A DNA stretch of 22,263 nucleotides from a virus. The stretch is from positions 1-22,263 of IMG/VR virus record IMGVR_UViG_3300037225_000271; one strand, written 5' to 3'. This document shows positions 1 to 20,642 of the stretch, one piece after another. A program made the position numbers and the translations under genes. The number at the start of each line of letters is the position of its first letter. The stretch's first letter is position 1. The notes under the pieces were generated by a model. That model was not told the DNA's origin and did not search any database. It saw only the letters and a list, made by a program, of their open reading frames with translations.

Positions 1-163
1 TTATTGGTCTTCGGGTATAAACATTTCTGAAATTATTTTTATATTGATTGGCACCATAAGCTGCAGAAGGATGTAAACAAACTTCTTCATTTCTATGAAT
101 TAAACCGAAGAATTTTTCTTCTACTTCTATTCCAAAAAACTTGCAGTCTTCACAGTATTTCAT
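1..163 (-). CDS. Partial small Cys-rich phage-type protein (3' end outside window)
   Basis: Reading leftward from an ATG at 163, an open frame of 54 codons runs off the window edge with no in-frame stop. The start is preceded by a good ribosome site (AAGGAA about 8 nt upstream). It opens MKYCEDCKFF and has a later CLHP, so it shows a CxxC pair followed by a Cys-x-His, as in small putative zinc-binding phage proteins. It lies 11 nt after the SDR stop, in the same direction, so it probably shares that transcript. It looks richer in A and T than the four genes upstream of it, which may mean a different origin. The function is unknown. Confidence 0.6.
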   Translation of the reverse strand, partial: MKYCEDCKFFGIEVEEKFFGLIHRNEEVCLHPSAAYGANQYKNNFRNVYTRRPI

Positions 164-174
164 TTTACTTTTCC

Positions 175-876
175 TTAATACCTCTTCCTTAAAATTTCAC
201 ACTCGCCCATCCTGATTGTTTTATATTCTTTAACTTGCGAGACGATATATTCCGCCACTTCTTCCGGCTGCATTAGTTTGTCTTTATCTTCCGCCATCGT
301 AAAGCCCGTATCCATTTTTCCGAGAAAGAAGTTCATGATAGTTACGTTGTGCTTCAATGCTTCAAATTGAAACGCCTTCATAAAGCCCCAAAGGGCGGAC
401 TTGCTCGCCGAATAAAGCATTTCGCCTTCCGATGGCTGGCCGACCGCTATTGAGTTGATGTTGATAATGGTGCCGCGCCCCTTCTTTTTGAAATGCCTAA
501 AGATGTCCCGTGTTAAAAGAACCGGAGCCATGAAGTTCACGGCCATGATTTCTTCCGCTTTTTCTATCGTCATGTCCCCTATTGGTTCATTGAGATACAT
601 TGCGGCATTGTTCACAAGGATGTCAACGTCAAGTATTCGCGCCATACCGATAAGACCTTTAGTCGTATGCGCGCCGTCAAGATGTCCGAGTTCGCCACCG
701 ACCTTATAGTTACCACGAAGCCGTGCGATTATCCCAGTGTTTGATATTTTTTCCGCAACCGCATCCAGCCGTGCAACGTCTCTACCATGCAGTATGACGC
801 CGTGCCCCTGCTTTGCAAACTCGATAGCAAGCGCCGCGCCTAACCCTTTCGAGCTGCCTGTTATAAGAACTCTCAT
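175..876 (-). CDS. Short-chain dehydrogenase/reductase (SDR)
   Basis: A classical SDR of about 233 residues, expected to be a cytosolic NAD(P)-dependent oxidoreductase acting on a hydroxyl or keto group. The Rossmann glycine motif TGSSKGLG is at residues 6-13, NNAA at 89-92, the catalytic Ser near 142, and YSASK with Tyr155 and Lys159. I chose ATG 876 over the in-frame GTG at 885 because it starts directly on the family's usual MRVLITG and forms an ATGA overlap with the stop of the FkbM gene. That overlap implies translational coupling. It is the fourth gene of a metabolic cassette (E1 fusion, alcohol dehydrogenase, methyltransferase, SDR). A role as ketoreductase in modified-sugar synthesis is inferred; the substrate is unknown. 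Confidence 0.88.
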   Translation of the reverse strand: MRVLITGSSKGLGAALAIEFAKQGHGVILHGRDVARLDAVAEKISNTGIIARLRGNYKVGGELGHLDGAHTTKGLIGMARILDVDILVNNAAMYLNEPIGDMTIEKAEEIMAVNFMAPVLLTRDIFRHFKKKGRGTIININSIAVGQPSEGEMLYSASKSALWGFMKAFQFEALKHNVTIMNFFLGKMDTGFTMAEDKDKLMQPEEVAEYIVSQVKEYKTIRMGECEILRKRY

Positions 877-1496
877 CTCTGCCACGCAAGAAAGGTCGTC
901 ACCACGACGCCCAGTTCAATGTTGTTATATCCCCAGTCTTCTGTTACCTTGTTATGAAACATGGGGTCAATCCGCTTCAAAAAATCATACATCACAGCCT
1001 TATGCTCATCCATATTCGGGTCGTGCAGATGCCATTGCACGCCCATTTTTTTAATGCACATCAACTCTTCATCTGTAAGCGCCGGGAGAAAATACCTCTC
1101 GTCCCCCTCACAGTTCGCTTTCAGGAAATCTATCCTGCCTAACTGTTTTATGATGGACGAAAAAGAAACAACGTTTACAAACTCGGGGATGCATCTGTCA
1201 TTTTTCCAATATCGCGTGCTCGCCGGGGTCGCATCCTGATTGTAGAATATTTCCGCCACTTCATCTTTGACGCCCACCGCCGCATGAATGGCCTCCACGC
1301 CCGGTATCTCTTTCAGCTCAAGAAACGGGGCTTCCGCGGGTTCATAAGCGATAATCCTGCCCGCGCCTTTTAGTTTGGCAAAATGGCAAAATTCGCCTAC
1401 ATGAGCGCCAATGTCGACCACAAGATCGCCCGGCTCAATGTCTATTACGCCGGGGATGATATTGGCTGCGCTGTTATCGTTCGGTGCAAGTGTCAT
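873..1496 (-). CDS. FkbM-family SAM-dependent methyltransferase
   Basis: A 207-residue protein with the FkbM-type methyltransferase fold. The SAM-binding motif I is VVDIGAHVGEF at about residues 26-36, followed by the acidic AYEPAE at the end of the next strand. The characteristic late motif is KANCEGDE, equivalent to the family's K-x-D-x-E-G-x-E. Members usually O-methylate sugars or secondary metabolites. It overlaps the alcohol dehydrogenase stop by ATGA at 1493-1496 and the SDR start by ATGA at 873-876, so it sits in the middle of a coupled operon. Length is near the small end of the family. Methylation of a sugar hydroxyl is an inference from family and context; the acceptor cannot be seen. 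Confidence 0.85.
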   Translation of the reverse strand: MTLAPNDNSAANIIPGVIDIEPGDLVVDIGAHVGEFCHFAKLKGAGRIIAYEPAEAPFLELKEIPGVEAIHAAVGVKDEVAEIFYNQDATPASTRYWKNDRCIPEFVNVVSFSSIIKQLGRIDFLKANCEGDERYFLPALTDEELMCIKKMGVQWHLHDPNMDEHKAVMYDFLKRIDPMFHNKVTEDWGYNNIELGVVVTTFLAWQR

Positions 1497-2407
1497 TTCT
1501 GCTCCATTTCTATAATGCAGCGTCCGATTTTGCCTGAGCGAACCACATCCAGTGCTGCATTAATTTCGTCCAGGCAAAAACAATCAGTAATAAGGCTTTC
1601 AAGTTTTATCCGGTTATGTCTCCAAAGTTTTTCTAAATATATCGGTATGTCTCGATTAGGATCGGTTGCCCCGCCTAAGCTTTCATAAGTAACGCCCTTA
1701 ATGTTGTCCTGAATAAAAACACCGTTATGGCAGTTCACAACATAATCTATTTGGTTAAAATTGCTTTTGGCAAGAGACGGATGTGTCACGCCGAACCTCT
1801 CCGCCATGTCCATTTTGTAGCGTGTTTTATCAACCCCGTATATTCTCCATGCGCCGATCAATTTCGCTGCCTGAATAATGCTTAATCCAATACCGCCACA
1901 TCCAATTACGGCAATGGTATGGTATGGCTTTAGATTAATCTCGTTAAAAACAACCCCAAAACCCGTCGTGATCGCACAGCCCATGAGGGCGGCAACTTCA
2001 AGCGGAACGTCTTTCGGGATCACCGTCAGGCGGTTCTCGGAGACAACGGCGTACTCGTTAAATGTCGTAACCGGACCGCCGCCGATAACCTGCCCGTTTT
2101 CATCTAAATACTTTGGCGGCGAGGCGTCGATGCCCGCGCCTTTTCGCCAATGCATGACAACATGCTCGCCGGTGATGACTTGCGTTACGCCCGGCCCCAC
2201 AGCCCCAACTACCCCCCCGCCCTCATGTCCCAAAAGGTGCGGAAGATACAGATCAGGCCCGTACTGGCCCGCGATTTCCCCGATCTGCTTGCCGCAAATA
2301 CCGCTTGCCATGACCTTGACCAGAACCTGACCGTATTCCAAATCCGGCACAACAAGATCATGGATGACCAATTCGGAGTTTAGTTTTTCAAGTACGGCTG
2401 CTTTCAT
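1493..2407 (-). CDS. Zinc-type alcohol dehydrogenase (MDR family)
   Basis: A medium-chain dehydrogenase/reductase of about 304 residues, catalysing NAD(P)-dependent alcohol/carbonyl interconversion. The GroES-like domain has SGICGKQ (a catalytic-zinc Cys) and GHEGGGVV with the expected His-Glu pair. The cofactor domain has VIGCGGIGLS. The four-cysteine structural zinc lobe seen in many alcohol dehydrogenases is absent from the segment after MHWRKGAG. ATG 2407 gives the family-typical MKAAVLEK start. A GTG at 2425 would add six residues and leave only 3 nt after the E1 stop, so it remains possible. The stop overlaps the FkbM start by ATGA. At about 304 residues it is shorter than the common 340-380. 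The substrate is unknown; it is probably part of the same pathway as its neighbours. Confidence 0.87.
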   Translation of the reverse strand: MKAAVLEKLNSELVIHDLVVPDLEYGQVLVKVMASGICGKQIGEIAGQYGPDLYLPHLLGHEGGGVVGAVGPGVTQVITGEHVVMHWRKGAGIDASPPKYLDENGQVIGGGPVTTFNEYAVVSENRLTVIPKDVPLEVAALMGCAITTGFGVVFNEINLKPYHTIAVIGCGGIGLSIIQAAKLIGAWRIYGVDKTRYKMDMAERFGVTHPSLAKSNFNQIDYVVNCHNGVFIQDNIKGVTYESLGGATDPNRDIPIYLEKLWRHNRIKLESLITDCFCLDEINAALDVVRSGKIGRCIIEMEQK

Positions 2408-2428
2408 ACACTTAAAAGTAAACACGGC

Positions 2429-3601
2429 CTAAAATAATCCCTTCTGCTCACAAATCATAACCGGCCTGCCTTCGGCCATACGATAGGCCTCGCACACCTG
2501 CCCGCTTGTAACCGGCTCATAAACGGGGAAGGAAAACGCCTTTCTAAATACTCCTGTTAGGTTTTGCGTATGAGTCAGCCCAGCGTAAAACGGCTTAACC
2601 GACCCCGCAACCGCCCGGACAAGCACCGGCATCTCGAATTGACCATCCGATATTATCTTAATCACATCAAGGGTATTGACAAGAGCGTCCATAGCGTTCA
2701 TGACAAATTCGTGCCGCTCAAAGAACAAGACAGGCCTGAATCCCTCAAGCGACATCCCCATTGCCAGGCCCACCATCAGATTTTCCGCCAGGGGCGTCTC
2801 GATCTTCTGATCATCTGGAACGTTCTTCAGCGTCCCATAGGCCGATCCGTGCCGGACGTTATACCCGATAAAGACAGTATCGGTATCCCTCGCAAGCCGC
2901 TCATTTTCTTTCCTGATGGCCTCCAGATACCCCCCCTGCCCCTGAATATCGCTCAATTCCGAATCGGCGGCGTAGGGCTTATGCTGGATCGCGGCTTCTT
3001 TCTTGAACTCAAGCCATTTGTTATTGCCGCTGCCGGAATGAGGACGGGTAGCTTTATAGCAATATTCATAAACGCATGGCGGCCAGTCACCAAAGCCCCC
3101 CACAACCCCCCATCTCTCCTGTATGGTCGCATTAACGCTCCGGTCATTATCCTCAACAACGAACGTGCAAGGCAGGTTCCATCCGTCGACATACCGCACC
3201 GCCTCGTAGAAGTGACCCTGATCCTCCGCACCGTCCCCAACAAAACACCATACCCGCGCCCGGCTGCCTTTCCTCTTGAGCGCCAGCGCCACACCCGCCG
3301 CTATCGCGGGAGTAGCCGCCACAATAGACGAGCTATAAAAGTTCAGCTTACGGTCAAAAACAAACATGCTCTTACCGTTTTCAATAAAGGTTTCGAGCTC
3401 CTTGGGAGAAATGCCCTTAAGCAAGGCGTGATAATGATTTCTGTGGGTGCTGAAAACGTAGTCTGTAGGCTTAATGTCCGTGAAAATATCAAGCAATTCA
3501 TCCTCGTTGCCGCCCGAAAGGTGTACCAAATAGGGCAACTCGCCCGCATCAAAACGGTCTGCAATGCGCTTCTCGAAAGCTATAAGATCACGTCTGTCCA
3601 C
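2429..3601 (-). CDS. TPP-dependent dehydrogenase E1-type alpha/beta fusion
   Basis: A 390-residue protein joining two halves usually encoded separately. Residues 1 to about 215 match the alpha-subunit (TPP/Mg-binding) domain, with GDG at 122-124 and the matching acidic/Asn (VVEDN) near 148-152. Residues about 225-390 match the pyrimidine-binding domain of the beta subunit, including TPLAEN with the Glu (273) expected to activate thiamine. The C-terminal transketolase-C domain of a normal beta subunit is missing. No E2 or E3 gene is nearby, so a classical oxidative decarboxylation complex is unlikely. A non-oxidative acyl or aldehyde transfer is the simpler inference. Start GTG 3601 is supported by GAGGGGG about 6 nt upstream and by TAGTG overlap with the preceding 27-codon ORF. 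Confidence 0.82.
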   Translation of the reverse strand: MDRRDLIAFEKRIADRFDAGELPYLVHLSGGNEDELLDIFTDIKPTDYVFSTHRNHYHALLKGISPKELETFIENGKSMFVFDRKLNFYSSSIVAATPAIAAGVALALKRKGSRARVWCFVGDGAEDQGHFYEAVRYVDGWNLPCTFVVEDNDRSVNATIQERWGVVGGFGDWPPCVYEYCYKATRPHSGSGNNKWLEFKKEAAIQHKPYAADSELSDIQGQGGYLEAIRKENERLARDTDTVFIGYNVRHGSAYGTLKNVPDDQKIETPLAENLMVGLAMGMSLEGFRPVLFFERHEFVMNAMDALVNTLDVIKIISDGQFEMPVLVRAVAGSVKPFYAGLTHTQNLTGVFRKAFSFPVYEPVTSGQVCEAYRMAEGRPVMICEQKGLF

Positions 3602-3684
3602 TACATCCCCCTCGATACCAAGTATGCCATCCAGATTACAAATACCGCCATTGTGCCGTAAAGAAATGTTATAAAGTCATTCAT
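3601..3684 (-). CDS. 27-residue putative single-pass membrane protein
   Basis: A very short ORF, ATG at 3684 to TAG at 3601-3603. It begins MNDFITFLYG and is dominated by a hydrophobic stretch (AVFVIWMAYLV), enough for one membrane span, followed by a basic end. Its ATG overlaps the stop of the 42-codon ORF as ATGA, and its TAG shares a G with the GTG start of the E1 fusion (TAGTG). A GGAGGT lies upstream but about 16 nt from the ATG, so coupling probably matters more. The two-sided overlap is the main argument that it is real. It may be a leader that couples E1 translation, a small membrane peptide, or chance. No family is recognised. Confidence 0.5.
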   Translation of the reverse strand: MNDFITFLYGTMAVFVIWMAYLVSRGM

Positions 3685-3809
3685 GTGAATAAATGCGGAT
3701 ACCTCCTGACGCCACTGTAAGGCGTTGACTCATCCCCCGTGGTATCCCCCGGCCCGGAACGCTGGGCACCTGGATCGCCATTAGGGGTACATATGGGGGT
3801 ATCTGTCAT
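3681..3809 (-). CDS. 42-residue Gly/Pro-rich hypothetical protein
   Basis: ATG at 3809 to TGA at 3681-3683, 36 nt after the small terminase stop in the same direction. The protein opens MTDTPICTPNGDPG and stays rich in Gly, Pro, Ser, Thr and Asp before ending RRYPHLFT. Its stop overlaps the next ORF's start by ATGA. There is no clear ribosome site, which weakens the call. Composition looks like a disordered linker or small structural peptide. Two other short frames overlap here (a 34-codon ORF from 3781 and a 10-codon ORF); I prefer this one because of the canonical 4-nt overlap. The function is unknown. Confidence 0.42.
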   Translation of the reverse strand: MTDTPICTPNGDPGAQRSGPGDTTGDESTPYSGVRRYPHLFT

Positions 3810-3844
3810 ACATGCGTGAACTTTTATGTAGTCTTTTCGGGTAG

Positions 3845-4336
3845 TTATTTCTTCTGTTCGATTGCTGTATTGGCTATCGACTTACGCTTTTCTTTCGGCT
3901 CCAACGCCATGATCCAAGAGGTGATTGAGAGGGCTGCGTCAATCTCTGTCCTGTCTCGCATGTCTGTGATATTCTTAGCGGTAAAGGCGTAGGCGGCCGG
4001 GGGGTAGAGGCCAGCTATGCCGTTTCTTACCATAAACTCTTTCTGTAACTCTTTTGCGTGCGTGAAGGCCTCGTGGAACTCGCGATGTCGCTTGCACCAC
4101 ATATGTAACGTCTGGATATTACTTCCTATACTTCTCGCAAACGCTTCGAGAAAGGGCAGGTCGTTCGGCTTTTCTATGGGTTCTTTTATGATCGTACCTG
4201 ACTTGGTAACATATTCTTTGATTATTTGGCGGGTTTGGGGGATGGTGAAATACTCTATAATCTGTTTGCAGTATTCAGGTTTGTATGTGGAGGGTCTTCC
4301 GCCGGCGTGTTTGGCTTTGGGTGAATCTGCAACCAT
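3845..4336 (-). CDS. Phage terminase small subunit
   Basis: A 163-residue protein with the usual pattern of phage DNA-packaging small subunits. An N-terminal GGRPSTYKPEYC segment leads into a helix-turn-helix DNA-binding domain that includes FARSIGSNIQTLHMWCKRHREF. A helical oligomerisation region follows, ending in the family-like FTAKNITDMRD. It would recognise the packaging site and hand DNA to the large subunit (ATPase/nuclease). The large subunit would be expected immediately downstream. Instead two tiny ORFs and a metabolic cassette follow, so the large subunit must lie beyond the left edge or be absent. Start ATG 4336; the ribosome site is weak (GGA about 11 nt upstream). The HNH gene upstream fits the common HNH-terminase neighbourhood. 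Confidence 0.82.
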   Translation of the reverse strand: MVADSPKAKHAGGRPSTYKPEYCKQIIEYFTIPQTRQIIKEYVTKSGTIIKEPIEKPNDLPFLEAFARSIGSNIQTLHMWCKRHREFHEAFTHAKELQKEFMVRNGIAGLYPPAAYAFTAKNITDMRDRTEIDAALSITSWIMALEPKEKRKSIANTAIEQKK

Positions 4337-4349
4337 TTATGTAATCCGT

Positions 4350-4514
4350 TTACCGGTAGTTTGTAAGCCGCTTGATTGCGGCTTGCCAGTGAGCACGAGG
4401 TGTCGGGCTTCTGTGTGTGATGAGTCCGCTTTGCACCATGTTAGCTCGGACTGGGGTTTGTTTAGTGCTGCGCTTGCCGCTTTGAGGCGGCTGCGCTCTG
4501 TCGTGTAAAGTCAC
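4350..4514 (-). CDS. 54-residue basic hypothetical protein
   Basis: GTG at 4514 to TAA at 4350-4352, ending 13 nt before the terminase start. GAGGGG lies 5 nt upstream of the GTG. The product is basic, rich in Arg, Lys, Ser and Thr (for example SGKRSTKQTPVRAN), and ends HWQAAIKRLTNYR. An internal ATG at residue 26 is an alternative start. The ribosome site sits in the arm of a 6-bp hairpin (4519-4532), so its translation could be structure-controlled. No family is recognised. The evidence is a single ribosome site plus position, so this could be a chance frame. Confidence 0.38.
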   Translation of the reverse strand: MTLHDRAQPPQSGKRSTKQTPVRANMVQSGLITHRSPTPRAHWQAAIKRLTNYR

Positions 4515-4518
4515 CCCT

Positions 4519-4550
4519 TCCCCTCAAGGGGAGGCAAAACTAAAGTTTTG
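4519..4550. repeat. Two adjacent short perfect hairpins
   Basis: Arms TCCCCT/AGGGGA (4519-4524 and 4527-4532, 2-nt centre) sit next to arms CAAAACT/AGTTTTG (4535-4541 and 4544-4550, 2-nt centre). Read leftward, they lie between the HNH stop (4570) and the 54-codon ORF. The GC-rich one buries the GAGGGG ribosome site of that ORF. Neither is followed by a clean T run in the leftward direction, so a regulatory hairpin or protein site fits better than a simple terminator. Confidence 0.45.
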
Positions 4551-4569
4551 AATGATATACAAACGTCAA

Positions 4570-5010
4570 TTAATGACAATTAATGAGATTGTTTATCGCT
4601 GTTAGGGTTGATTTGCTTAGTGGTTTGACAGATGTGACAGGGTGACACTCAGAGAGCAGCATTTTAATTATCTTCTCATTCGGAGCCGACAATGGGGATA
4701 TTCCATTAAAGACATGATTATCACCAATATAGTTCGCCTCAGGTTCCCATAACCCTGCATGTAGTTCTATGTGACAATTCGCACATAGAATAATAAACTC
4801 TGATTCTTTTATCTTCTCTACTAATGCCTTGCGTCCCTTACTCATCCATCGGGAAAGCGTATCTTTATAACCTTTTTTAGAATTGCAATCAATGTGGTGA
4901 GCGTGGAGGGCTTTCGCACATTGGTTATAACCACACCTCCGGCAATACGCTCCGATTACCTTCCAGAAAAACTCACCATTCCTTTGTCTTGTACTTTGCT
5001 TTTTTTCCAT
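4570..5010 (-). CDS. HNH endonuclease-like protein
   Basis: A 146-residue protein with a zinc-supported HNH nuclease core: YCRRCG (CxxC) near residues 22-27, HAHHID at about 36-41, and LCANCHIELH (CxxCH...H) at about 75-84. These supply the zinc cysteines and the His-Asn-His-type catalytic set of the fold, which nicks or cuts DNA using one metal ion. The C-terminal 60 residues have no recognised motif. It overlaps the end of the upstream zinc/HTH gene by 55 nt in another frame. HNH proteins next to terminase genes are common in phages and can be needed for packaging-linked DNA cutting; a homing nuclease is the alternative. Start ATG 5010 has only a weak ribosome site. Confidence 0.78.
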   Translation of the reverse strand: MEKKQSTRQRNGEFFWKVIGAYCRRCGYNQCAKALHAHHIDCNSKKGYKDTLSRWMSKGRKALVEKIKESEFIILCANCHIELHAGLWEPEANYIGDNHVFNGISPLSAPNEKIIKMLLSECHPVTSVKPLSKSTLTAINNLINCH

Positions 5011-5363
5011 CGGTAAATTGTCCTCTTGTCACAATTCATTATATTGGCAATATCCGCGATTGATATATGCGCAAGCAACATAGCGCCTATCGCACGACGT
5101 CTGGTATCTTTAATCTCAAGCAACCTATCGTGCGCCGTTGCTCGGTCTTCTATGAGCTCTGACAGGGTTTGATTGTAGTCGGTGCCGGGTAGGGTTTTTC
5201 TGAGGTCTTCGACCAACGGTTCGCGCCTTGCCTTGTTTCCGTTCACCCATAGCATCGGCATACAAAGCCCAGGACATGACCGGTGAACATTTTCACCATT
5301 AATGATAAACGTCATCATGCTGTTGTTGCAGCCAACGCATAATGGGTCGTTTAGTTTACTCAT
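4956..5363 (-). CDS. Zinc-finger plus HTH DNA-binding protein
   Basis: A 135-residue protein. The N-terminal half has CVGC (residues 9-12), then C30 and C34 (SCPGLC), a plausible four-cysteine zinc ribbon. The C-terminal half contains a helix-turn-helix (IADIANIMNCDKRTIYRWKK) resembling terminase-small-subunit or resolvase-type recognition helices. It ends in a basic tail. The start ATG 5363 has AGGGTG upstream. It lies 36 nt after the SSB-tail gene and overlaps the HNH gene. A regulator or packaging/replication accessory is plausible; there is no firm family match. Confidence 0.65.
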   Translation of the reverse strand: MSKLNDPLCVGCNNSMMTFIINGENVHRSCPGLCMPMLWVNGNKARREPLVEDLRKTLPGTDYNQTLSELIEDRATAHDRLLEIKDTRRRAIGAMLLAHISIADIANIMNCDKRTIYRWKKSKVQDKGMVSFSGR

Positions 5364-5399
5364 GCCGCACCCTAATCTATTCCGCCGTCAAGTCAAGGT

Positions 5400-5645
5400 T
5401 TAAAACGGAATATCCTCGTCCTTGCCGCTGATCTCATGCGCTATCTGGGACAGCACGCCGAGCGCTGTTTCCTTGTCGCCCAGGATCAGGCGGATCGGCA
5501 TCGCCTTCTCTGCGTAGGTATCCTTGCCGGTTTGCGGCTTTCCCCACTTCTCGTATTCCCCATAGCAGGCCGTAAGTTGATAGATTCCCTTGTACTCTGT
5601 TAATTTAACTCCGTTCTTTTCGTGCGTGTTTATGATCTCGCTCAT
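5400..5645 (-). CDS. Small protein with SSB-like C-terminal tip
   Basis: An 81-residue protein ending in GKDEDIPF. That is almost the acidic tip (D-D-D-I-P-F) by which single-stranded DNA-binding proteins recruit primase, helicases, RecO, exonuclease I and others. The body (about residues 8-70) has alternating polar and aromatic residues compatible with beta strands. It is only half the size of a bacterial SSB, and I cannot confirm an OB fold. A strong GGAGGAG lies 7 nt before ATG 5645. The start overlaps the stop of the 52-codon ORF as ATGA. Two small genes separate it from the primase/helicase, which supports a replication-fork role. It may be a minimal SSB or a decoy/recruitment protein. 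Confidence 0.68.
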   Translation of the reverse strand: MSEIINTHEKNGVKLTEYKGIYQLTACYGEYEKWGKPQTGKDTYAEKAMPIRLILGDKETALGVLSQIAHEISGKDEDIPF

Positions 5646-5800
5646 GGTTTCTCCTCCAGGTTTTCAAGTAAGTAAATTACACAGTCTAAACACTTAGAAC
5701 GCCCGTTAGTATATCTGCTTTCCAATTCAGATTCCAGCCGCTTCTTGATCTCCCTCAAAACGGGGAAAAATAACTGATACCATACGTCAACTTTCTGCAT
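5642..5800 (-). CDS. 52-residue helical hypothetical protein
   Basis: ATG 5800 to TGA 5642-5644. It opens MQKVDVWYQLFFPVLREIKK, then is charged and probably helical, with a CLDC pair near the end. It overlaps the preceding 76-residue gene by 14 nt and the next start by ATGA, so it fits exactly into the reading chain. The start has a moderate purine-rich upstream region (GGAG about 13 nt away). The function is unknown; a small accessory protein of the replication block is the natural reading of its place. Confidence 0.58.
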   Translation of the reverse strand: MQKVDVWYQLFFPVLREIKKRLESELESRYTNGRSKCLDCVIYLLENLEEKP

Positions 5801-6017
5801 CTTCCGCGATCTCCATTTCTAAACTGATTTCATAATTAGGTTTTTCACCATCAAAATAATTCATTACCATTAACGGTATAACTCCGTGCTTTTTTGCTAA
5901 TCGCTTACACATAACTAACCATGCTTGCCGTTTAGTGAAAGCATGAGCGTATAAAACAGTAACTTCCCTCTGGAAATTAAACACTCCTCTCCACAGTTGT
6001 TTTATGGGTGTTCCCAT
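5787..6017 (-). CDS. 76-residue hypothetical phage protein
   Basis: ATG 6017 to TGA 5787-5789. It follows the primase/helicase with a 16-nt overlap and precedes the 52-codon ORF. The middle (AFTKRQAWLVMCKRLAKKHG) is an amphipathic, basic helix, and the C-terminus is acidic (EMEIAEDAES). A purine-rich GGGGG sits just before the ATG. Small proteins with an aromatic start, a conserved Ala-Trp helix and an acidic end are common in phage replication modules, but I recognise no characterised family. Confidence 0.62.
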   Translation of the reverse strand: MGTPIKQLWRGVFNFQREVTVLYAHAFTKRQAWLVMCKRLAKKHGVIPLMVMNYFDGEKPNYEISLEMEIAEDAES

Positions 6018-7588
6018 TCCCCCACCTTCTTGAAATGACAGCCGGCCGCCAAAGTAAATTTACAGTTCATACCGTTAGGATTAACGACCTTACTTTTCCA
6101 TATCTTCCCCTTCACTATGGTCAGGATGTTGCCTGTTGTAATCGTCATGTAAAGCCTTGAACGGTTTAATGTTCCTGAACCACCATACCCATATTCTTTA
6201 TTTGGGTCTTTCTGAATAGATACAATTGCAATGCCGGTTTTTAACTTGTCGGCTATCTGTCTTAGTCTGGCCGGCATACGGTAGGCTTCCTCATCCGTAC
6301 CTTCATCAAGATAATCCACAATGTTTAATCCGTCAGGGTCTACACGATCAGGAAAGTTATCTGTTCTAAACTGGAATTTTATAGGTTTCCACGTTTTAAG
6401 TGCTACCTTGAACTCGTCCAGCCTTATCCGTAGCTCTGCACCGTTTTGCATTTCACTACTCATGTAATTTACTTGAAACTTGTCACGATTAAGGAAGGCA
6501 ACATTCAACATAAATGCCGTCTTGCCGGCATTCGACTCACCGGCAAGGACAATGATGTTTCCTTTATGAATTGTGACGTATTCATGTACTCCGAGCGGCA
6601 AAGTGACAGCATAGGGTGTGAGGTCTACATTCTCGTAGTCTATCAATTCTTCTTCTTGTTCTATAACTCTCCATGAACCATTTTTGTTTCCATGCCTAAC
6701 AATTAGACCTTCTCCCATTGCTCTTTTTAGACACATGGAAAGGTTCTGCAATTCTTCCCGTGTTGACAAATGTAGACGTTTTGCCATTTCTGTTGACAAA
6801 AAGTTGCCAAATGTTGACAAGAGTTCTTCTCGAAGCTCTTGCATTACGTTTCTTTCTTTTGACCTTACTCGCTTGTATGCACTTTCGATTTTTGTTTTCA
6901 ACTCTCCTAACGGAAACGGTGGCTCGCAGTTTTGTGCAATTATTTCACCTACTTTATAGGCATAATCAATTTCATACTTCCCCTTTGCAAGCGAATTAGA
7001 GAGGTGAAAAATGTCATTATCCCGTGTGCCGGCCTTGAATAACGTGTTGACATTTGTTGACGGTGTTAACATTTGTTGACTACTGCCTATTTGCTTAGCG
7101 TGCATATATATTGTACTTATATTATTTATATTATAAAAAGACAACTGCGAGGCCGGCTTGACAATCCATTCATAACCCTTGCCGTTGATGCCTTTGGATG
7201 GCGGCAAAACTATCGTGCTGCCTTCTGCCTGAAGGTCTGTCTTATCTTTAAACCCCACTTGCTTTTGCAATTTCTTGTCGCAGGCAAAATAATAGTGCCG
7301 GCCGCCACGGGGAGTCTGGACGCATGGAATTTCTAGACCGTCCGGCAATGCCTTCTCTATAGCATCAATGGCTTCTGGTGAATCGCAGTCGATCACAACC
7401 ACTTTTGAAATTGAACCTACAACGGCAGATATGCCGGCATCGGGATTTTTAGACCACCATTCTTTTATTTCTTCGTCTGATGCAATGCGTGATTGGAACT
7501 CTGTCCATGGAACTATTGGAGACTTGTTGCGTTGAGGTACTACTGAAAAACCTAATTGATGTTTGTACCAAAGGGCTTGATCTATCAT
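6002..7588 (-). CDS. Primase-polymerase / RecA-fold helicase fusion
   Basis: A 528-residue bifunctional replication protein. Residues 1 to about 145 form an AEP-type primase-polymerase domain (Prim-Pol, PF09250-like). VVVIDCDS contains the metal-binding DxD (67-69), TPRGGRHYYF contains the catalytic His (98), and TDLQAEGSTIVLPPS follows at about 117-131. A helical linker with a primase C-terminal character spans about 185-245. The C-terminal half is a RecA-like ATPase with Walker A GESNAGKT at 350-357 and a later AIVSIQKDP strand, as in DnaB/RepA-type helicases. It would prime and unwind DNA at the phage fork. ATG 7588 follows AAGGAA; a structured region (7600-7712) precedes it. Downstream are small accessory proteins including the SSB-tail protein. 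Confidence 0.87.
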   Translation of the reverse strand: MIDQALWYKHQLGFSVVPQRNKSPIVPWTEFQSRIASDEEIKEWWSKNPDAGISAVVGSISKVVVIDCDSPEAIDAIEKALPDGLEIPCVQTPRGGRHYYFACDKKLQKQVGFKDKTDLQAEGSTIVLPPSKGINGKGYEWIVKPASQLSFYNINNISTIYMHAKQIGSSQQMLTPSTNVNTLFKAGTRDNDIFHLSNSLAKGKYEIDYAYKVGEIIAQNCEPPFPLGELKTKIESAYKRVRSKERNVMQELREELLSTFGNFLSTEMAKRLHLSTREELQNLSMCLKRAMGEGLIVRHGNKNGSWRVIEQEEELIDYENVDLTPYAVTLPLGVHEYVTIHKGNIIVLAGESNAGKTAFMLNVAFLNRDKFQVNYMSSEMQNGAELRIRLDEFKVALKTWKPIKFQFRTDNFPDRVDPDGLNIVDYLDEGTDEEAYRMPARLRQIADKLKTGIAIVSIQKDPNKEYGYGGSGTLNRSRLYMTITTGNILTIVKGKIWKSKVVNPNGMNCKFTLAAGCHFKKVGEWEHP

Positions 7589-7599
7589 ATGTAGATTCC

Positions 7600-7712
7600 T
7601 TCCCCATAAAAAGAAACCCCATACAGGAGGCTAAGAGGCATTTGCATGACTCGCCTGACGGGGTTCTTCTTATGGGTTTTGGAATCGTGAATCACTTTTT
7701 ACCTCTTAGCCT
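7600..7712. promoter_or_regulatory. Structured leader/terminator region upstream of primase-helicase
   Basis: The 154-nt gap between the DUF7220-like gene and the primase gene is full of complementary segments. An 11-bp perfect inverted repeat pairs 7628-7638 (AGGCTAAGAGG) with 7702-7712. Nested and competing with it, 7616-7627 pairs imperfectly with 7654-7664 (CCTGACGGGGT). Read leftward, that second stem is followed by a T-rich TTTCTTTTT, so it resembles a rho-independent terminator. The two pairings share the same region and cannot easily both form in full, as in an attenuator. No small gene was seen in it. Confidence 0.5.
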
Positions 7713-7742
7713 AAATCTATTTTACAACTTCCCATCACATTG

Positions 7743-7961
7743 TCAAGGCATTTTTTCCGTTAGCCTTGTAAAGATTCTGCGTAGGCAGTAGCTTCTTGCC
7801 AGCGATATGACCGTAAACCATATCCCTATCCAGATGTTGCTTTTCAACGAAACGTGAATGTCGAAAAACGGGAAAATGATGATCTGGGACAGCAGGGCTA
7901 TGCCGTAGCCAACGGCCACGTTGACGCATGATTCAAGTGCGCTATGCTTGCGGCGCTGCAT
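7743..7961 (-). CDS. DUF7220-like small membrane protein
   Basis: A 72-residue protein with two likely membrane segments, around residues 12-34 (VNVAVGYGIALLSQIIIFPF) and 43-58 (IWIGIWFTVISLARSY), and a basic C-terminus containing RSYCLRRIFTRL. The pattern (an SALES-like start, GYG-ALLSQ, FP-F, IG-FT, RSY-RR-F) fits the phage/prophage family I know as DUF7220, whose function is not known. ATG 7961 lies inside the 3' end of the helicase-methyltransferase gene (20-nt overlap), so it is read from the same message. The frame at 7735-7929 is an out-of-frame shadow. The inner membrane location is inferred. Confidence 0.75.
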   Translation of the reverse strand: MQRRKHSALESCVNVAVGYGIALLSQIIIFPFFDIHVSLKSNIWIGIWFTVISLARSYCLRRIFTRLTEKMP

Positions 7962-10212
7962 TTACCGTCTCCTGAAATAAATCATCCTGGTTAAGCGAGA
8001 CAAGGTTCTGAACGGCGATCCTAAAGTAGCTGCCCTTAAGCTCGATGCCCAATGCCCGCCTTCTTAATTTTACCGCTACAAAAGCCTCGCTGCCGATGCC
8101 CATAAATGGCGTCAACACGGTTTCCCCCGGATTAGAATATAGCTTGATGCACCTTTCTATCGTTTCGAGTTGCAATGGACATATATGCTTTTCATCCATC
8201 GTGTCTCTCGCGCAATAATATTGCAGAGTATTGGTTTCGCTTATGTCTGTCCATATCCCATGCGCCCATGAAATCCACGTTTCATTGTCAAGCTCTCGGT
8301 TTTTTACTGGCTCAATGGGGATTGCATTTTCTCCGGGCTTCTTAAATATCAGGATTTGATCTATAAGGGCAGGGCGTGAATGTGAGGAATCTTTTTTCAT
8401 CTGGACAAACAAAAGGGATTTACACTTTACCCTGATGGCCTGAGATTGGGGATTCTTCTGGACAAAAGCCCTACCAACAAAAACCCATCCCATGTCTTGG
8501 TGTAGCTTTATAACATGTCCGGGGAAATCTTTGAGTCCGATATAGCCATCCCTGCTTGCCATTGCCGGAACGTCTGATGTATGGACACACGATAACCGCC
8601 CAGGCTTGGTGCATCGAAGAATATCTTTTACGATAAATCCGTAATGAGTAAAAAATTCATTCCAGTTCTTGCAGTTCCCTAAATCTCTTTCGCTGTTAGA
8701 ATAGACGAACAGGTCTGCAAAGGGCGGGCTATAAATCGAAAGGTCAATAGATTCGTCGGCCACTTCCTTTAACCTCAAAACGGAATCGCCCCTCATAGCC
8801 CTCCATGTATCGCCGATAACCAGATCCTCACAGTATTCCTCTTTCACTAATTCAACATCCATAATTTCGCCTTTCTCGTAAAGTTTAATGCGGTCGACCA
8901 TCTTTGTCCTGAGTCTGGTAGCCTGCAATTCCTTGCGCTTGATGTTTTCGTAGATTTCTAATTCGGGGGATGCTAAGATGATGTAAACATTAACCGGCCT
9001 TTTCTGACCAAATCGCCATTCACGCCGAATAGACTGATAGAATGTTTCCCATGAATCATTAAGACCAAAAAAGACCATATTATTGGCATTTTGGAAATTC
9101 ATCCCATACCCGCCGATTTTGCTTTTTGTAATTAGTACCGGATACTTCCCGTCCTGAAAATCCTCGAAGTTCTTTATCTTCGATTCAATGGAATCCGACC
9201 CCTTGACTTCTCTGCAATATCCATTAAGTGCTTTTTTAACAACCGCGCTTTCCTTATCTAATCCGCACCATATCAGCCATTGTTCTTCGGGTTCTCTTAT
9301 TAGGCCATTCAGGATTTCCAGTTTCACATCGACCATATCAGACCGGACCTTAGCCCTGTCTGATATTCCGGCCAGTCCATCAAAAAACAAAACGTCTTCT
9401 TGGTGGTATCCGATAACTTCTTGAATCAGAGGTGTTATGGTTAATTCTGGAAGGTCAAACCCTTCATCGTCATATCCTAAATCAGACGGTTTCATCATAA
9501 ACATTGCCCACGATGACATCCAATTAAGGAATCTTTCCTCGGCATGGTGCTTTATACGCCACTCCTGACCGCCCTTGTTTGAACCCTTCTTGATAATCAA
9601 CTTGCCGTTGAAATCAATGGTGTGTTCTTTATTAGCATTGATAAAAAACATGGCAAGCATTTCTTGATGGGTGCAGACCTCAAGAAACCATGCATGATTG
9701 CCGATTTCAATATAATCATTAGGTGCGGGTGTTGCCGTACAGCATAGTTTATGTTTGACGCCTCGGAAGATATCTATCAACTTGCGCTTGATCTTGCCGG
9801 ATATGGATTTCAGGATTGACGATTCATCCAACACGATAGAATCCACGTTGCCGGTGAAGTTGTCAATCAGTTCATAGTTCGTTATGTTTATTCCCTCTTT
9901 GAGTTGCGATTCATCATGGGCATAATTCAGGACAAGGCCTATCTTTGTGGCCTCTCTGATAGTCTGCCGACCAACCGATAAAGGCGCAACAATAAGGCAT
10001 CTACCGCCGATTAGCCGCGCCCATTCAAGCTGAATAAATGTTTTGCCCAATCCGGTATCAAGAAAGATTGCACACCGCCCTTTTTTGACAGCCCACTTCA
10101 CAATATCCTGCTGGAAATCAAAGAGGATGGGGTTTATCTCGCCCTTGTTTATAATCTTTCCAGACGAAAGATATTTGAATCGCTTGCTTTCCAAAAACTC
10201 TTGGTAGTTCAT
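7942..10212 (-). CDS. SNF2/DEAD-like helicase fused to DNA methyltransferase
   Basis: A 756-residue fusion. The N-terminal 440 residues are an SF2 helicase: DTGLGKT Walker A at 52-58, DESS (DEAH-box position) at 129-132, TATPAPND motif III at 159-166, and a C-terminal helicase lobe ending in QSIRREWRFGQ at about 393-403. The C-terminal 290 residues are an amino-methyltransferase: SPPF (motif IV) at 495-498 and TPFMGIGSE (motif I) at 701-709, followed by ALGIELKGSY. Catalytic motif before SAM motif is the beta-class order, and SPP(F/Y) is typical of N4-cytosine enzymes. Neither half looks truncated. It probably modifies phage DNA, perhaps coupled to translocation or replication. ATGA overlap joins it to the 62-residue gene upstream. 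Confidence 0.85.
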   Translation of the reverse strand: MNYQEFLESKRFKYLSSGKIINKGEINPILFDFQQDIVKWAVKKGRCAIFLDTGLGKTFIQLEWARLIGGRCLIVAPLSVGRQTIREATKIGLVLNYAHDESQLKEGINITNYELIDNFTGNVDSIVLDESSILKSISGKIKRKLIDIFRGVKHKLCCTATPAPNDYIEIGNHAWFLEVCTHQEMLAMFFINANKEHTIDFNGKLIIKKGSNKGGQEWRIKHHAEERFLNWMSSWAMFMMKPSDLGYDDEGFDLPELTITPLIQEVIGYHQEDVLFFDGLAGISDRAKVRSDMVDVKLEILNGLIREPEEQWLIWCGLDKESAVVKKALNGYCREVKGSDSIESKIKNFEDFQDGKYPVLITKSKIGGYGMNFQNANNMVFFGLNDSWETFYQSIRREWRFGQKRPVNVYIILASPELEIYENIKRKELQATRLRTKMVDRIKLYEKGEIMDVELVKEEYCEDLVIGDTWRAMRGDSVLRLKEVADESIDLSIYSPPFADLFVYSNSERDLGNCKNWNEFFTHYGFIVKDILRCTKPGRLSCVHTSDVPAMASRDGYIGLKDFPGHVIKLHQDMGWVFVGRAFVQKNPQSQAIRVKCKSLLFVQMKKDSSHSRPALIDQILIFKKPGENAIPIEPVKNRELDNETWISWAHGIWTDISETNTLQYYCARDTMDEKHICPLQLETIERCIKLYSNPGETVLTPFMGIGSEAFVAVKLRRRALGIELKGSYFRIAVQNLVSLNQDDLFQETVNAAPQA

Positions 10213-10397
10213 ATCTCAATCCACCTATTAACATACTTCCCCTTCGGCTTGATGCCGTGTACCGCTTCCATTATCTCAAGATCGTGGACTATCTTCATAA
10301 TATCGTCAACGTGCCTTGCGAGTTCCTTGTACTGAAATTCAGCGAACGCCTGACGTTCCGCCTTGCTCATTGACGCGAATGGGATGGTTGGGGTCAT
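10209..10397 (-). CDS. 62-residue helical hypothetical protein
   Basis: ATG 10397 to TGA 10209-10211, overlapping the helicase-methyltransferase start as ATGA. The sequence is mostly helix-forming (KAERQAFAEFQYKELARHVD, then IMKIVHDLEIMEAVHG) with a short basic and aromatic tail. AAGGA lies about 15 nt upstream of the start. Its strict coupling suggests a partner or regulator of the fusion enzyme. No family is recognised. Confidence 0.6.
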   Translation of the reverse strand: MTPTIPFASMSKAERQAFAEFQYKELARHVDDIMKIVHDLEIMEAVHGIKPKGKYVNRWIEI

Positions 10398-10412
10398 GGG
10401 GTTATTTCCTTT

Positions 10413-10445
10413 TTAGCCGTCTAAATGGTAAGTATGTTGCCATTT
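10413..10445. repeat. 33-bp direct repeat, copy 1
   Basis: Begins TTAGCCGTCTAAATGG and matches the copy at 10687-10719 at 29 of 33 positions. It contains a dyad, AAATGG, 11 nt, CCATTT. It lies directly upstream of the 62-residue gene (start 10397), so it could be an operator or leader hairpin for the leftward helicase transcript. Confidence 0.7.
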
Positions 10446-10525
10446 ATCCCGACACTTTGGCGGGATTGTAAGTAATTCTATCCAAGAATTGGCAATTTTA
10501 TCGCCTTTGTGCCGTTTATTGGTAA

Positions 10526-10596
10526 GGTGTCGGCGGGACTCGAACCCGATTCAAGGATCCACAATCCTTTGTCTTAACCAATTAGACGACCGACAC
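10526..10596 (-). tRNA. tRNA-His (anticodon GTG), slightly non-canonical
   Basis: A 71-nt cloverleaf on the minus strand. The acceptor stem is GTGTCGG/CCGACAC, the D arm is GTCT...AGAC with TTGG in the loop, and the anticodon stem is AAGGA/TCCTT with loop TTGTGGA, giving anticodon GTG (His). The T loop is TTCGAGT. Position 73 is C, as in tRNA-His. Two oddities: the T stem has only four clear pairs (CGGG/CCCG), one fewer than usual, and the nucleotide before G1 is T, so the G-1 identity base of histidine tRNAs is not encoded. No CCA is encoded. Phage tRNAs are common near early genes. It could be functional or slightly decayed. Confidence 0.8.
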
Positions 10597-10686
10597 AGCA
10601 CGCCCTAAAAATGAAATCTGGATTGATAAATCGCTTACTCCTAAAGAATACCAATTTATGGTGCATTATATGTGTAAGATGTCTTA

Positions 10687-10719
10687 TTAGCCGTCCAAAC
10701 GGTAAGTATGCTTCCATTT
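10687..10719. repeat. 33-bp direct repeat, copy 2
   Basis: Begins TTAGCCGTCCAAACGG. It lies 274 bp from copy 1, on the other side of the tRNA, and differs at four positions. Its dyad AAATGG/CCGTTT keeps pairing through a G-T wobble, so the inverted-repeat architecture is preserved despite a change. Confidence 0.7.
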
Positions 10720-10774
10720 TACTCAATGCCCCGTGCAATTTTACTCAATGAACACTTTCAACGTTTGTTGAAAA
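10716..10774. repeat. 13-bp direct repeats and adjacent palindrome
   Basis: ATTTTACTCAATG occurs at 10716-10728 and again at 10738-10750, 22 bp apart, about two helical turns. It is followed by the perfect dyad TTTCAAC-GTTT-GTTGAAA at 10757-10774. These sit downstream of the metallophosphoesterase stop. There is no T run after the dyad in the leftward sense, so it reads more like protein binding sites than a terminator. Confidence 0.55.
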
Positions 10775-10814
10775 TACCTGCAATAGTGAAAAAGTGCTGG
10801 TACATCCACTTGTG

Positions 10815-11723
10815 TTACACCTTCTTGCTTTGAGTGCCTGCAATGCCTACGCCCTCGCCCTTAACCTCAACAGTCAATTCACGACGATAAGGTGTATATC
10901 GTGCCTTTGTCATACCAAGTGTGGTCGGCGGGTATCCCCTACGTTCTCCGTAGCTGACCATTTGCGGCGTGTAGGTTCGCAAATATGATCCGGTAATCAA
11001 GGCCATTGTCTGGCGCTGATTGATGACCGTGCAATCCTCGTTAGGATACAGCCGGACAAAAGGCTTTGCTATCGCTTCATGCAGGTGTCCGGTAAGGATC
11101 AGATTGGCCTCTACCATGTCATGCGCTGCCTTCAGGCGGTTTACTTTCCCTCCTGCAGTGGCCGGCGCACCCGCACCGTGAAAGTTAAAGACACTTAGTT
11201 TTGCCGTATATTCCGGCGGTAGTTGTTCAGGGAATAGCTGAACTACGGCGCTTTTGATAGACGGATCGTGGACAAAGTAAATGTCAACGAAGGATGAAAA
11301 CCAGATGTCCGGCACGCCAAGCTGTTTGCATATAACACCATGCACCTCATACTGGTTGCGCCTGCTCATGTAGTTCCATTCGTGATTCCCGAATCCAAAA
11401 CCAAGGCACTTAGACGCAATCGGCGCGAACATCTCTATTATCTGCTTGCTCACAAATTCTGTATATTTGGCGAGTTCGGACAGCTTGAAATCAGGCGGAA
11501 AGCATAGCGGGTCAAAATGCGGATGCCCTGGCGTTATCCAATCCGCGTAATCTCCCAAGCCAAATACAAGGCCATTGTCATCATCAGCAACGGCCTTTAT
11601 ATCACGCTTGAGATGATCTCCTGCAGTACCTCTATTCAACCAATGCGCATCGGCTATGGCGTATATGCGAAACTCCGCAAACTTGTTCGGGTATGATATG
11701 ATTCTGAAACCGCCTGGCTCCAT
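10815..11723 (-). CDS. Calcineurin-like metallophosphoesterase
   Basis: A 302-residue protein with the full two-metal phosphoesterase signature: IADAHW (Asp25, His27), GLGDYAD at about 55-61, GFGNHE at about 110-115, FNFHGAG with His182, and TGHLHE at about 211-216. These residues bind two divalent metals and hydrolyse phosphodiesters. Related proteins include SbcD/Mre11-type nucleases, but the capping domain of SbcD is not obvious, so the substrate (DNA, RNA or nucleotide) is open. Its start shares an A with the upstream HTH gene's TAA (TAATG). A possible SbcC partner survives only as a 20-codon stub at 20639. Confidence 0.83.
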   Translation of the reverse strand: MEPGGFRIISYPNKFAEFRIYAIADAHWLNRGTAGDHLKRDIKAVADDDNGLVFGLGDYADWITPGHPHFDPLCFPPDFKLSELAKYTEFVSKQIIEMFAPIASKCLGFGFGNHEWNYMSRRNQYEVHGVICKQLGVPDIWFSSFVDIYFVHDPSIKSAVVQLFPEQLPPEYTAKLSVFNFHGAGAPATAGGKVNRLKAAHDMVEANLILTGHLHEAIAKPFVRLYPNEDCTVINQRQTMALITGSYLRTYTPQMVSYGERRGYPPTTLGMTKARYTPYRRELTVEVKGEGVGIAGTQSKKV

Positions 11724-11935
11724 TATTTGCCCTCCATAAGTTTCTTGTATAAATCTATATCTAACTCCGCCTTCAGGGGTTTAAGGGAAATTCCAATCCT
11801 GTCCAGTTTGCCGATGATACCATCAATGGACCGGCTCTTAAAGACTTTAAGAATATCATCCACCGTGCAACCGGCATTGGCCATCTTGCGGAGCATCTTA
11901 GTTTCTTCATCTGACCAGTATATACGCTTGTTCAT
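11723..11935 (-). CDS. SANT/Myb-like small DNA-binding protein
   Basis: A 70-residue protein starting MNKRIYWSDEETKMLRKM. The Trp followed by an acidic helix, a second helix (TVDDILKVFK) and a third with a basic face (SIDGIIGKLDRIGI) match the three-helix SANT/Myb-type fold used by small phage regulators. GGGGG is 4-8 nt upstream of ATG 11935. Its stop overlaps the metallophosphoesterase start (TAATG). It probably binds DNA; the target is unknown. Confidence 0.68.
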   Translation of the reverse strand: MNKRIYWSDEETKMLRKMANAGCTVDDILKVFKSRSIDGIIGKLDRIGISLKPLKAELDIDLYKKLMEGK

Positions 11936-11978
11936 ATTCCCCCTGTACCCTATTTCCCGTTAATCGCTTGGCGGGCGA

Positions 11979-12131
11979 TTATTGCCACTTCTCCGCAATC
12001 TTCTTTACCAGTTCCGGCCATGTCCACATCTTCCCTTTAATCTTCCCCTCTGCAATAGGTTCCGTATCCCCCATGACAATGTACTTCCAGCCGGTCTTTG
12101 TCTGCATGAGATAAATTGAGATGATTTTCAT
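11979..12131 (-). CDS. 50-residue hypothetical protein
   Basis: ATG 12131 to TAA 11979-11981. The start overlaps the stop of the DNA methyltransferase as ATGA. The sequence begins MKIISIYLMQTKTGWKYIVM (a beta-hairpin-like pattern) and ends with a tryptophan-rich helix (MWTWPELVKKIAEKW). That balanced two-part composition, with the exact coupling, makes it more than chance. The function is unknown. Confidence 0.62.
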   Translation of the reverse strand: MKIISIYLMQTKTGWKYIVMGDTEPIAEGKIKGKMWTWPELVKKIAEKWQ

Positions 12132-13783: not shown

Positions 13784-13790
13784 AACTACT

Positions 13791-13860: not shown

Positions 13861-13868
13861 AAAAAAGC

Positions 13869-19754: not shown

Positions 19755-20007
19755 CAAAGACGACCTTGAGCAGTTCTTTAAACTGCAAGGCGCTCTCGAC
19801 GTCGATATCCGAATCAACCGTATTCCCCGCGTGACTGTGCGCTCGGAGGCCGTCCTGACGGCAGAGACGTTTAGGGACAAGCTGATCGCCATGGCTGCCT
19901 TACGTGACGAGCAAGTGCCGGCGAGCATACTAAAGAAGGCGGATGAGTTGGAAGGCATGGAGGCAGAAAAAATAATAGCAGGAGTGGGGAATGGAGGAAG
20001 TGTATGA
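19720..20007 (+). CDS. 95-residue hypothetical protein
   Basis: GTG 19720 to TGA 20007. Alternating charged and hydrophobic segments ([20 protein letters not shown], then [19 protein letters not shown]) suggest a mixed alpha/beta domain with a C-terminal helix. The nearest strong ribosome site lies 19 nt from the GTG and belongs to the mini-ORF at 19707, so the start is uncertain (GTG 19726 is also possible). Coupled by ATGA to the pentapeptide gene. No family is recognised. Confidence 0.55.
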
Positions 20008-20642
20008 AGAAATACTTTGAGATAAAAAACAGGCTTGATGGATCGTTAATATTTTCGACGGAAACAACGTCAATAAAACTGGCCGTAAAAGCGGCGATCA
20101 AAGCGAAAATTAACCTTTCCGGGGCTGACCTTTCCAGGGCTGACCTTTCCGGGGCTGGCCTTTCCTGGGCTGACCTTTCCAGGGCTGACCTTTCCTTGGC
20201 TAACCTTTCCGGGGCTAACCTTTCCAGGGCTAACCTTTCAGGGGCTAACCTTTCCGGGGCTGACCTTTCCAGGGCTGACCTTTCCTGGGCTAACCTTTCA
20301 GGGGCTAACCTTTCCGGGGCTGACCTTTCCAGGGCTAACCTTTCCAGGGCTAACCTTTCAGGGGCTAACCTTTCCGGGGCTGACCTTTCCAGGGCTGACC
20401 TTTCCTGGGCTAACCTTTCCGGGGCTGACCTTTTTGTTACATCATGGAACCTTGGCTGCGGCTCGCTTAATGTTACGGTCGATGCAAAAATCGCCATTCA
20501 GATTTTATACCACTTCACGCGCCTTAAATGTGAGGACGCAAGAGTAAAAGAAATGCAGAAAAAAGCTGGCAAGCTGGCCAACAGATTTCACCTAATCGGA
20601 AGGGAGAGCGGATGTACAGTAGTGAGCGAGGATGAAACATGA
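20004..20642 (+). CDS. Pentapeptide-repeat protein
   Basis: A 212-residue protein. Residues 1-36 are a charged helix. Residues about 37-141 are 21 units of [N/D/G]LS[G/R/W/L]A, the pentapeptide repeat that forms a right-handed quadrilateral beta helix. The C-terminal 70 residues (Lys/Ala-rich helices, with [12 protein letters not shown]) cap it. Pentapeptide proteins can mimic DNA and inhibit gyrase, but that activity is not shown here and the function is unknown. GGAGG precedes ATG 20004, which overlaps the previous stop. Its stop overlaps the SbcC-like stub as ATGA. Confidence 0.78.
20112..20426 (+). repeat. 15-nt tandem repeat array, 21 units
   Basis: Units of the form (A/G)ACCTTTCC(G/A/T)GGGCT within the pentapeptide gene. 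Variation is almost confined to column 1 (A/G) and column 10 (G/A/T), with occasional TCA for TCC. A six-unit block (units 8-13) recurs at units 16-21, eight units or 120 nt later, so duplication has acted on a higher-order block too. Read on the other strand it gives a false ERSAPER-like frame. Confidence 0.95.

Follow-up and report, generated by a model that had tools for sequence, protein, structure and literature searches.

The locus described here raises the question of why a phage should carry a run of sugar-type metabolic genes directly downstream of its small terminase subunit (TerS) gene, where the large subunit (TerL) gene usually follows, and what these genes might make. It is found at positions 175–3601 of IMGVR_UViG_3300037225_000271, an IMG/VR contig of 22,263 bases that is a phage fragment and was analyzed in its entirety (termed the window). 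The initial annotation described four same-strand genes here, i.e. an E1-type thiamine pyrophosphate (TPP) enzyme fusion, a zinc alcohol dehydrogenase (ADH), an FkbM methyltransferase and a short-chain dehydrogenase/reductase (SDR), the last three joined by ATGA overlaps and the set preceded by a small terminase gene. Profile matches on the minus strand agree with this description throughout. The four genes are part of an insertion between the TerS and TerL genes. Three of them represent a conserved core, widespread and virus-enriched, that consists of a zinc ADH or a radical S-adenosylmethionine (rSAM)/SPASM enzyme, a compact E1 or a split transketolase, and an SDR; the FkbM gene is an add-on outside of this core. 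The region has the following features, with lengths in amino acids (aa).

3845..4336, minus strand: TerS, small terminase subunit, 163 aa (phrog_3064, E = 4e-23; phrog_309, 5e-8)
3601..3684, minus strand: micro-open reading frame (micro-ORF), 27 aa, single-transmembrane-like, MNDFITFLYGTMAVFVIWMAYLVSRGM (from the sequence)
2429..3601, minus strand: compact TPP enzyme, the pyrophosphate-binding (PP) domain of E1alpha fused to the pyrimidine-binding (PYR) domain of E1beta, 390 aa (Pfam E1_dh, 8e-19, and Transket_pyr, 2e-8; phrog_34187, E = 9e-143)
1493..2407, minus strand: zinc-dependent ADH of the medium-chain dehydrogenase/reductase type, 304 aa, best start ATG at 2407 (ADH_N, 2e-14; phrog_2640, 8e-62)
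873..1496, minus strand: FkbM-family methyltransferase, 207 aa (PF05050, 5e-8; TIGR01444, 7e-15)
175..876, minus strand: SDR oxidoreductase, 233 aa, start ATG at 876, with TGSSKGLG and YSASK motifs (PF00106, adh_short, 6e-38)
1..163, minus strand: first part of a Cys-rich ORF of 89 aa, interrupted by the end of the window and continued in a sister contig

The ATGA overlaps are exact, at 1493–1496 between the ADH and FkbM genes and at 873–876 between the FkbM and SDR genes. The TAG stop codon of the micro-ORF overlaps the GTG start codon of E1 (TAGTG), an arrangement in which translational coupling is possible. When the window is shuffled 50 times no stop-free run exceeds 219 codons, a length that the 390- and 310-aa ORFs both surpass.

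The sister contig, IMGVR_UViG_3300036885_000127 (27,043 bases, locus L001), is 100% identical to the window over window positions 1–13,598 (13,598 bases) and extends past the left edge of the window. It also spans the gap at 3.6–3.8 kb, and because it carries the same bases through this gap at 100% identity, an assembly join at that point is unlikely. A search of the window alone with PF03237 gave no match, and the window stops short of the TerL gene. In the sister contig, beyond the left edge, TerL is found at positions 18365–19795; TerS (9263–9754) is encoded there on the same strand, 8.6 kb away. The TerL assignment has a weak direct PHROG match (phrog_979, 7e-5), and the protein shares 67% identity with the TerL of two other loci (L142/L143), where a portal gene lies next to it. 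The proposal that TerL is missing or that the cassette has taken its place is therefore rejected; TerL is displaced by 8.6 kb, not replaced.

Relatives of TerS were found in 30 viral loci, most of them with TerL immediately after. In 24 of 27 TerS relatives an ORF of TerL size overlaps TerS or starts within 260 bases of it (16 are recognised as TerL). Two of the three exceptions have a GroEL gene after TerS and TerL 5.1 kb further on, and the next large ORF of the third is not assignable. Since the terminase genes adjoin in most relatives and TerL lies 8.6 kb on in the present phage, the cassette is an insertion between them. It belongs to a lineage in which chaperonin genes are also found in or near this interval. 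GroEL (Cpn60) is present between TerS and TerL at L128/L129 positions 9785–17053; GroES directly precedes TerL in L142/L143 and is also among the TerS-TerL cargo of the present phage.

This cargo amounts to about 13 genes rather than four. After the SDR gene the sister contig displays the 89-aa Cys-rich ORF, a 157-aa ORF, GroES, an rSAM/SPASM gene, a B12-binding rSAM gene, small ORFs and a methyltransferase gene. These are followed by TerL and then by a GT2 glycosyltransferase gene, another rSAM-like gene and a portal-like gene.

L001 13436–20720: stretch of the sister contig with the 89-aa ORF and the cargo that continues from it (157-aa ORF, GroES, rSAM-SPASM, B12-rSAM, methyltransferase, TerL and GT2)

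The existence of a core is seen from the neighbors of E1 and of ADH. The loci compared are the best query matches and many are closely related; the tree-based counts are meant to allow for this kinship. Among 95 E1 loci a zinc ADH adjoins E1 in 84 and an rSAM/SPASM enzyme of one family does so in eight, with both in none and neither in three, one of which is truncated by the contig end. Archaeal genomes that were fetched later, and which had no part in defining the pattern, include three with the rSAM gene directly beside E1 and no ADH, and a fourth with neither. Viewed from the ADH side (80 viral loci), E1 is found in 51 and a split transketolase in 26, again with both in none and neither in three. 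The split transketolases consist of separate PP and PYR genes with no C-terminal domain; both types of TPP enzyme stop after PYR. When the TPP type is placed on the ADH tree there are at least eight changes, at least six of them forced by well-supported branches. SDR homologues occur within 6 kb of E1 in 36 of the 95 E1 loci, and they are present in 50 of the 80 ADH loci. BtrN, DesII and cytosylglucuronate decarboxylase, all of which act on sugars, are matched by the rSAM profile. Isofunctional parts of one pathway would be expected to replace each other repeatedly, one for one, without ever co-occurring, and this is the pattern seen; it is from mutual exclusion solely that ADH and rSAM are inferred to be isofunctional. 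The question of whether the same four genes occur together elsewhere has a divided answer, i.e. the E1-ADH-SDR core recurs in many phages, but FkbM accompanies it only occasionally. A conserved unit of all four genes is rejected on this basis.

The TPP enzyme is shorter than a true E1. Its match to phrog_34187 is full length (residues 6–388 of 390), and the family profile (59 rows) reaches only to about position 214 in E1alpha and to about 177 of approximately 330 in E1beta. No Pfam match to the Transketolase_C domain was found in the window E1, and the structural match is likewise without a C-terminal domain. The AlphaFold2 (AF2) model has a pLDDT of 93.9 and gives Z = 23 to the E1beta PYR domain; against residues 18–477 (PP and PYR) of human transketolase Z is 21 over 350 residues, with a root mean square deviation of 3.5. 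The TPP/Mg and catalytic positions D122, N151, E272, H343 and H57 are invariant or nearly so in the family. The score with TIGR03182 (pyruvate dehydrogenase (PDH) E1) is 91 bits against a curated cut-off of 394, and that with the transketolase family 30 bits against 488; by sequence comparison the enzyme is closer to E1 than to transketolase. The scanned ORFs of the window and sister contig, which represent an incomplete genome, include no E2 or E3 gene, and none was seen in the other contigs read. This is a TPP enzyme cut down to two domains (PP and PYR) that is unlikely to serve a PDH complex, and identity with pyruvate dehydrogenase is rejected on domain content and score. In the E1 tree the window copy groups with those of L010, L011 and L013 (SH-aLRT 96), apart from a large T4-like clade.

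A profile scan of viral contigs shows at least 442 stretches that encode E1 relatives, of which the best 80 were read. The profile was needed for this, as a single-sequence search recovered only the sister contig among the viral relatives. Among 84,980 prokaryote genomes scanned there were 23 matches, 12 of them to the compact family, and two sampled phyla had matches in 5 of 279 genomes and in 2 of 287. These scans differ in sensitivity and the virus bias is to be read as a tendency, not a rate. Viral E1 copies are fused, whereas separate alpha and beta genes are found in several bacterial copies, in one huge phage, and in four of the five E1 copies of a sampled archaeal phylum. Cellular copies are sparse and often split, and the set is not a fixed bacterial locus. 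In the huge phage (LR756501, 735 kb; L006 8385–10603) an rSAM/SPASM gene separates the beta and alpha genes of the split E1, and the region is rich in glycosyltransferase genes. One archaeal split E1 (L148, G093 contig 43) has in-frame TGA codons, a sign of a pseudogene or of a different genetic code, with no ADH or rSAM gene nearby. Loci of Alphaproteobacteria and others that carry full-length E1 alpha and beta genes with an SDR (L101–L111) were excluded; these represent an ordinary, separate E1 family of 27%–34% identity.

The set had been considered uncommon in phage packaging regions, and this does not hold for the core. In the nearest relatives ADH-E1-SDR is found directly before TerL (L010, L011), before a head-tail adaptor gene (L012, L013) or after a capsid-type gene (L014), and in L055 it precedes TerL and portal. 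The exact site varies among these loci, so the placement in the packaging region has arisen at a number of different points and does not reflect a single frozen insertion. L012 and L014 have glycosyltransferase and methyltransferase genes next to the trio, and a TerS relative (L127) has such genes within its structural region. L014 also displays GT9 heptosyltransferase domains close to the trio, and L012 does so weakly. A protein of 1267 aa beside ADH-E1-SDR (L014 10437–14240) displays two methyltransferase domains joined with GT9 heptosyltransferase domains. The ADH-E1 pair of T4-like phages precedes genes for an HldE-type kinase, an HldE-C-type nucleotidyltransferase, an HldD-type epimerase and glycosyltransferases. 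None of the ORFs between TerS and TerL in the sister contig is an HldE-like kinase, a nucleotidyltransferase or an HldD-like epimerase. The likeness to surface-polysaccharide clusters that had been noted is borne out, as the core occurs in many phages and often within glycan gene clusters, and the initial reading of phage cargo concerned with surface sugars is largely right. The core recurs in hundreds of viral contigs and lies mostly in glycan gene clusters or in head and packaging regions. Its product may decorate the host or the virion, or may be a small molecule.

The ADH of the window differs from its relatives. Alignment shows that approximately 31 residues of the Rossmann half are absent, around the cofactor-domain strand GGKVIMVGQP. 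Among 79 other viral ADH copies every full-length one has at least 333 aa, and this loss is seen only in the window copy. AF2 confidence falls to 62–82 at residues 211–250, and the ADH tree displays a window branch of 0.84 against a median of 0.17. The catalytic zinc ligands and the GCGGIG motif are nevertheless kept. The shortened allele is identical in both contigs, and a random assembly error is unlikely for this reason. As judged from the alignment and model, the enzyme may be impaired or altered, or the SPASM enzyme encoded downstream may have replaced it.

Taken together, the genes more probably than otherwise form a phage sugar-tailoring cassette, in which transfer of a C2 (ketol or acyl) unit combined with redox steps would yield a branched or C2-extended sugar as part of a glycan. 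The TPP enzyme and its partner oxidoreductase are repeatedly replaced beside the same neighbors, and this restricts the reaction to transfer of two carbons by a TPP enzyme, with redox steps on either side. The ADH, or rSAM enzyme, would convert a sugar alcohol into a ketone, or catalyze the reverse, and this step is possibly impaired in the present phage. The TPP enzyme, which does not have the C-terminal domain of a true E1, would pass a two-carbon ketol or acyl carbanion to a carbonyl sugar and not to lipoamide, and the SDR would reduce the product. The resulting C2-extended or branched sugar would be O-methylated by FkbM and attached to a host-surface or virion glycan by glycosyltransferases, e.g. 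the GT2 enzyme encoded after TerL.

Several observations weigh against this proposal. The window does not have the kinase and nucleotidyltransferase of the T4-like clusters, thus the route would need host sugar nucleotides or parts not yet seen, and the phage sequence is only a fragment. The E1-like sequence could be compatible with true 2-oxo-acid decarboxylation, and the ADH has lost its Rossmann segment. The mutual exclusion is also less strict under a looser profile cut, where the sister contig has ADH plus a distant rSAM-SPASM (68 bits, vs. 398–556 for the core family); L093 has a weak rSAM match on the opposite strand beside ADH.

The main rival explanation concerns heptose supply. A stripped transketolase would make a ketose phosphate (such as sedoheptulose-7-phosphate) for the ADP/GDP-heptose route, with ADH and SDR making adjustments and no branched sugar formed. 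This would fit the heptose-type genes that follow the T4-like E1, the GT9 domains near the trio, the occupation of the TPP slot by split transketolases and the 350-residue match of the E1 model to transketolase. However those heptose genes are absent from the window, the sister contig and the nearest relatives, the TPP sequence is nearer to E1, and the canonical heptose route needs no coupled ADH and SDR; the explanation is considered unlikely. A role in central metabolism is very unlikely; in this case the enzyme would be the E1 of pyruvate or acetoin dehydrogenase, or a transketolase of the pentose-phosphate pathway, and would raise carbon or energy metabolism during infection. Viral metabolic genes of this kind are known in general, and the E1_dh, Transket_pyr and PDH E1 models all match. 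The PDH match is far under its curated cut-off, the C-terminal domain is missing, no E2 or E3 gene is seen in the contigs read, and the genes that accompany it encode ADH/SDR, sugar enzymes and glycosyltransferases and not central metabolism.

Decay of the cargo, so that the cassette is non-functional in this phage after the ADH lost part of its cofactor domain, would account for the in-frame deletion found in no other viral copy, the long ADH branch and the low model confidence around the gap. It is nonetheless distinctly unlikely, as E1, FkbM and SDR are intact with their catalytic motifs, every reading frame is open and apparently coupled in translation, and the distant rSAM-SPASM enzyme encoded five genes downstream could replace the ADH as in other loci. 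That a bacterial chromosomal locus or a chimeric assembly has been mistaken for phage is hardly credible. The enzymes are from cell-like families with relatives in some cellular genomes, but TerS upstream and TerL plus a portal-like gene downstream lie on one contig, a second contig is identical over 13.6 kb, and the module is overwhelmingly found in viral contigs.

The sugar-tailoring proposal can be carried further, into a widespread viral pathway of exchangeable slots (zinc ADH or rSAM/SPASM for oxidation; compact E1 or split transketolase for C2 transfer; SDR for reduction) that would lead to a sugar not yet described. Small phages would keep the module in the head and packaging region for late expression, where it would modify the virion or the surface of the dying host, and in the present phage the rSAM enzyme may replace a crippled ADH. 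This extension is tentative and somewhat doubtful. Phage glycan gene clusters are already known; what is new is a widespread, virus-enriched core with exchangeable TPP and redox parts. The chemistry of phage glycan genes can rarely be guessed, and a long-unassigned cyanophage gene (“transketolase central region”) becomes directly testable. The findings also caution against labelling viral genes of this type as auxiliary genes for pyruvate dehydrogenase or the pentose-phosphate pathway. A literature search, necessarily incomplete and no proof of novelty, showed no paper that discusses the phage ADH-E1 pair.

Elsewhere in the window four other features were observed.

7942..10212, minus strand: SNF2-type helicase fused with an N6/N4 DNA methylase, a single 756-aa protein
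10526..10596, minus strand: lone tRNA-His gene with a GTG anticodon
15348..16352, plus strand: DUF7666 protein with approximately 15 copies of a YSKLAASGD-like nonapeptide repeat
20004..20642, plus strand: pentapeptide-repeat protein

Among known systems, the closest in sequence are found in the T4-like cyanophages S-SM2 and P-TIM68. Their E1, annotated as “transketolase central region-containing protein” (phrog_34187), is homologous to that of the window over its full length with 50% identity, and the zinc ADH beside it is homologous to the window ADH with 40%–42% identity. In Prochlorococcus phage P-TIM68 the ADH-E1 block also includes an SDR homologous to that of the window. The cyanophage block belongs to a long cluster that also encodes a kinase, a nucleotidyltransferase, an epimerase and glycosyltransferases. 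Unlike this arrangement, the window block lies between TerS and TerL with FkbM, GroES and rSAM enzymes, and has the order E1-ADH-FkbM-SDR. With pyruvate dehydrogenase E1 (alpha2-beta2) the window enzyme shares an E1alpha-like PP domain, an E1beta-like PYR domain and the TPP/Mg residues. It differs in being one 390-aa chain without the second half of E1alpha and the E1beta C-terminal domain, and no E2/E3 neighbors are seen. An exchange of ADH and rSAM enzymes has a precedent in 2-deoxystreptamine biosynthesis, where a zinc dehydrogenase or the rSAM enzyme BtrN performs the same oxidation; the substrates differ from those of the window system.

The systems nearest in proposed function are cellular and make branched sugars, i.e. 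yersiniose (YerE), the eurekanate of avilamycin and everninomicin (AviB1/B2, EvdU5/S3) and paulomycose (Pau11/12). YerE is a flavoprotein of the acetolactate synthase type, and the paulomycose ketoreductase Pau7 is an aldo-keto reductase and not an SDR. The E1-like pairs AviB1/B2, Pau11/12 and EvdU5/S3, or YerE, have been proposed or shown to put a two-carbon branch on keto-sugars, after which a ketoreductase acts (PMC4753412, PMC10338323). Like the window, these systems have a TPP enzyme, E1-like in the actinomycete cases, together with oxidoreductases that act, or in the window would act, on sugars (PMC4753412, PMC10338323).

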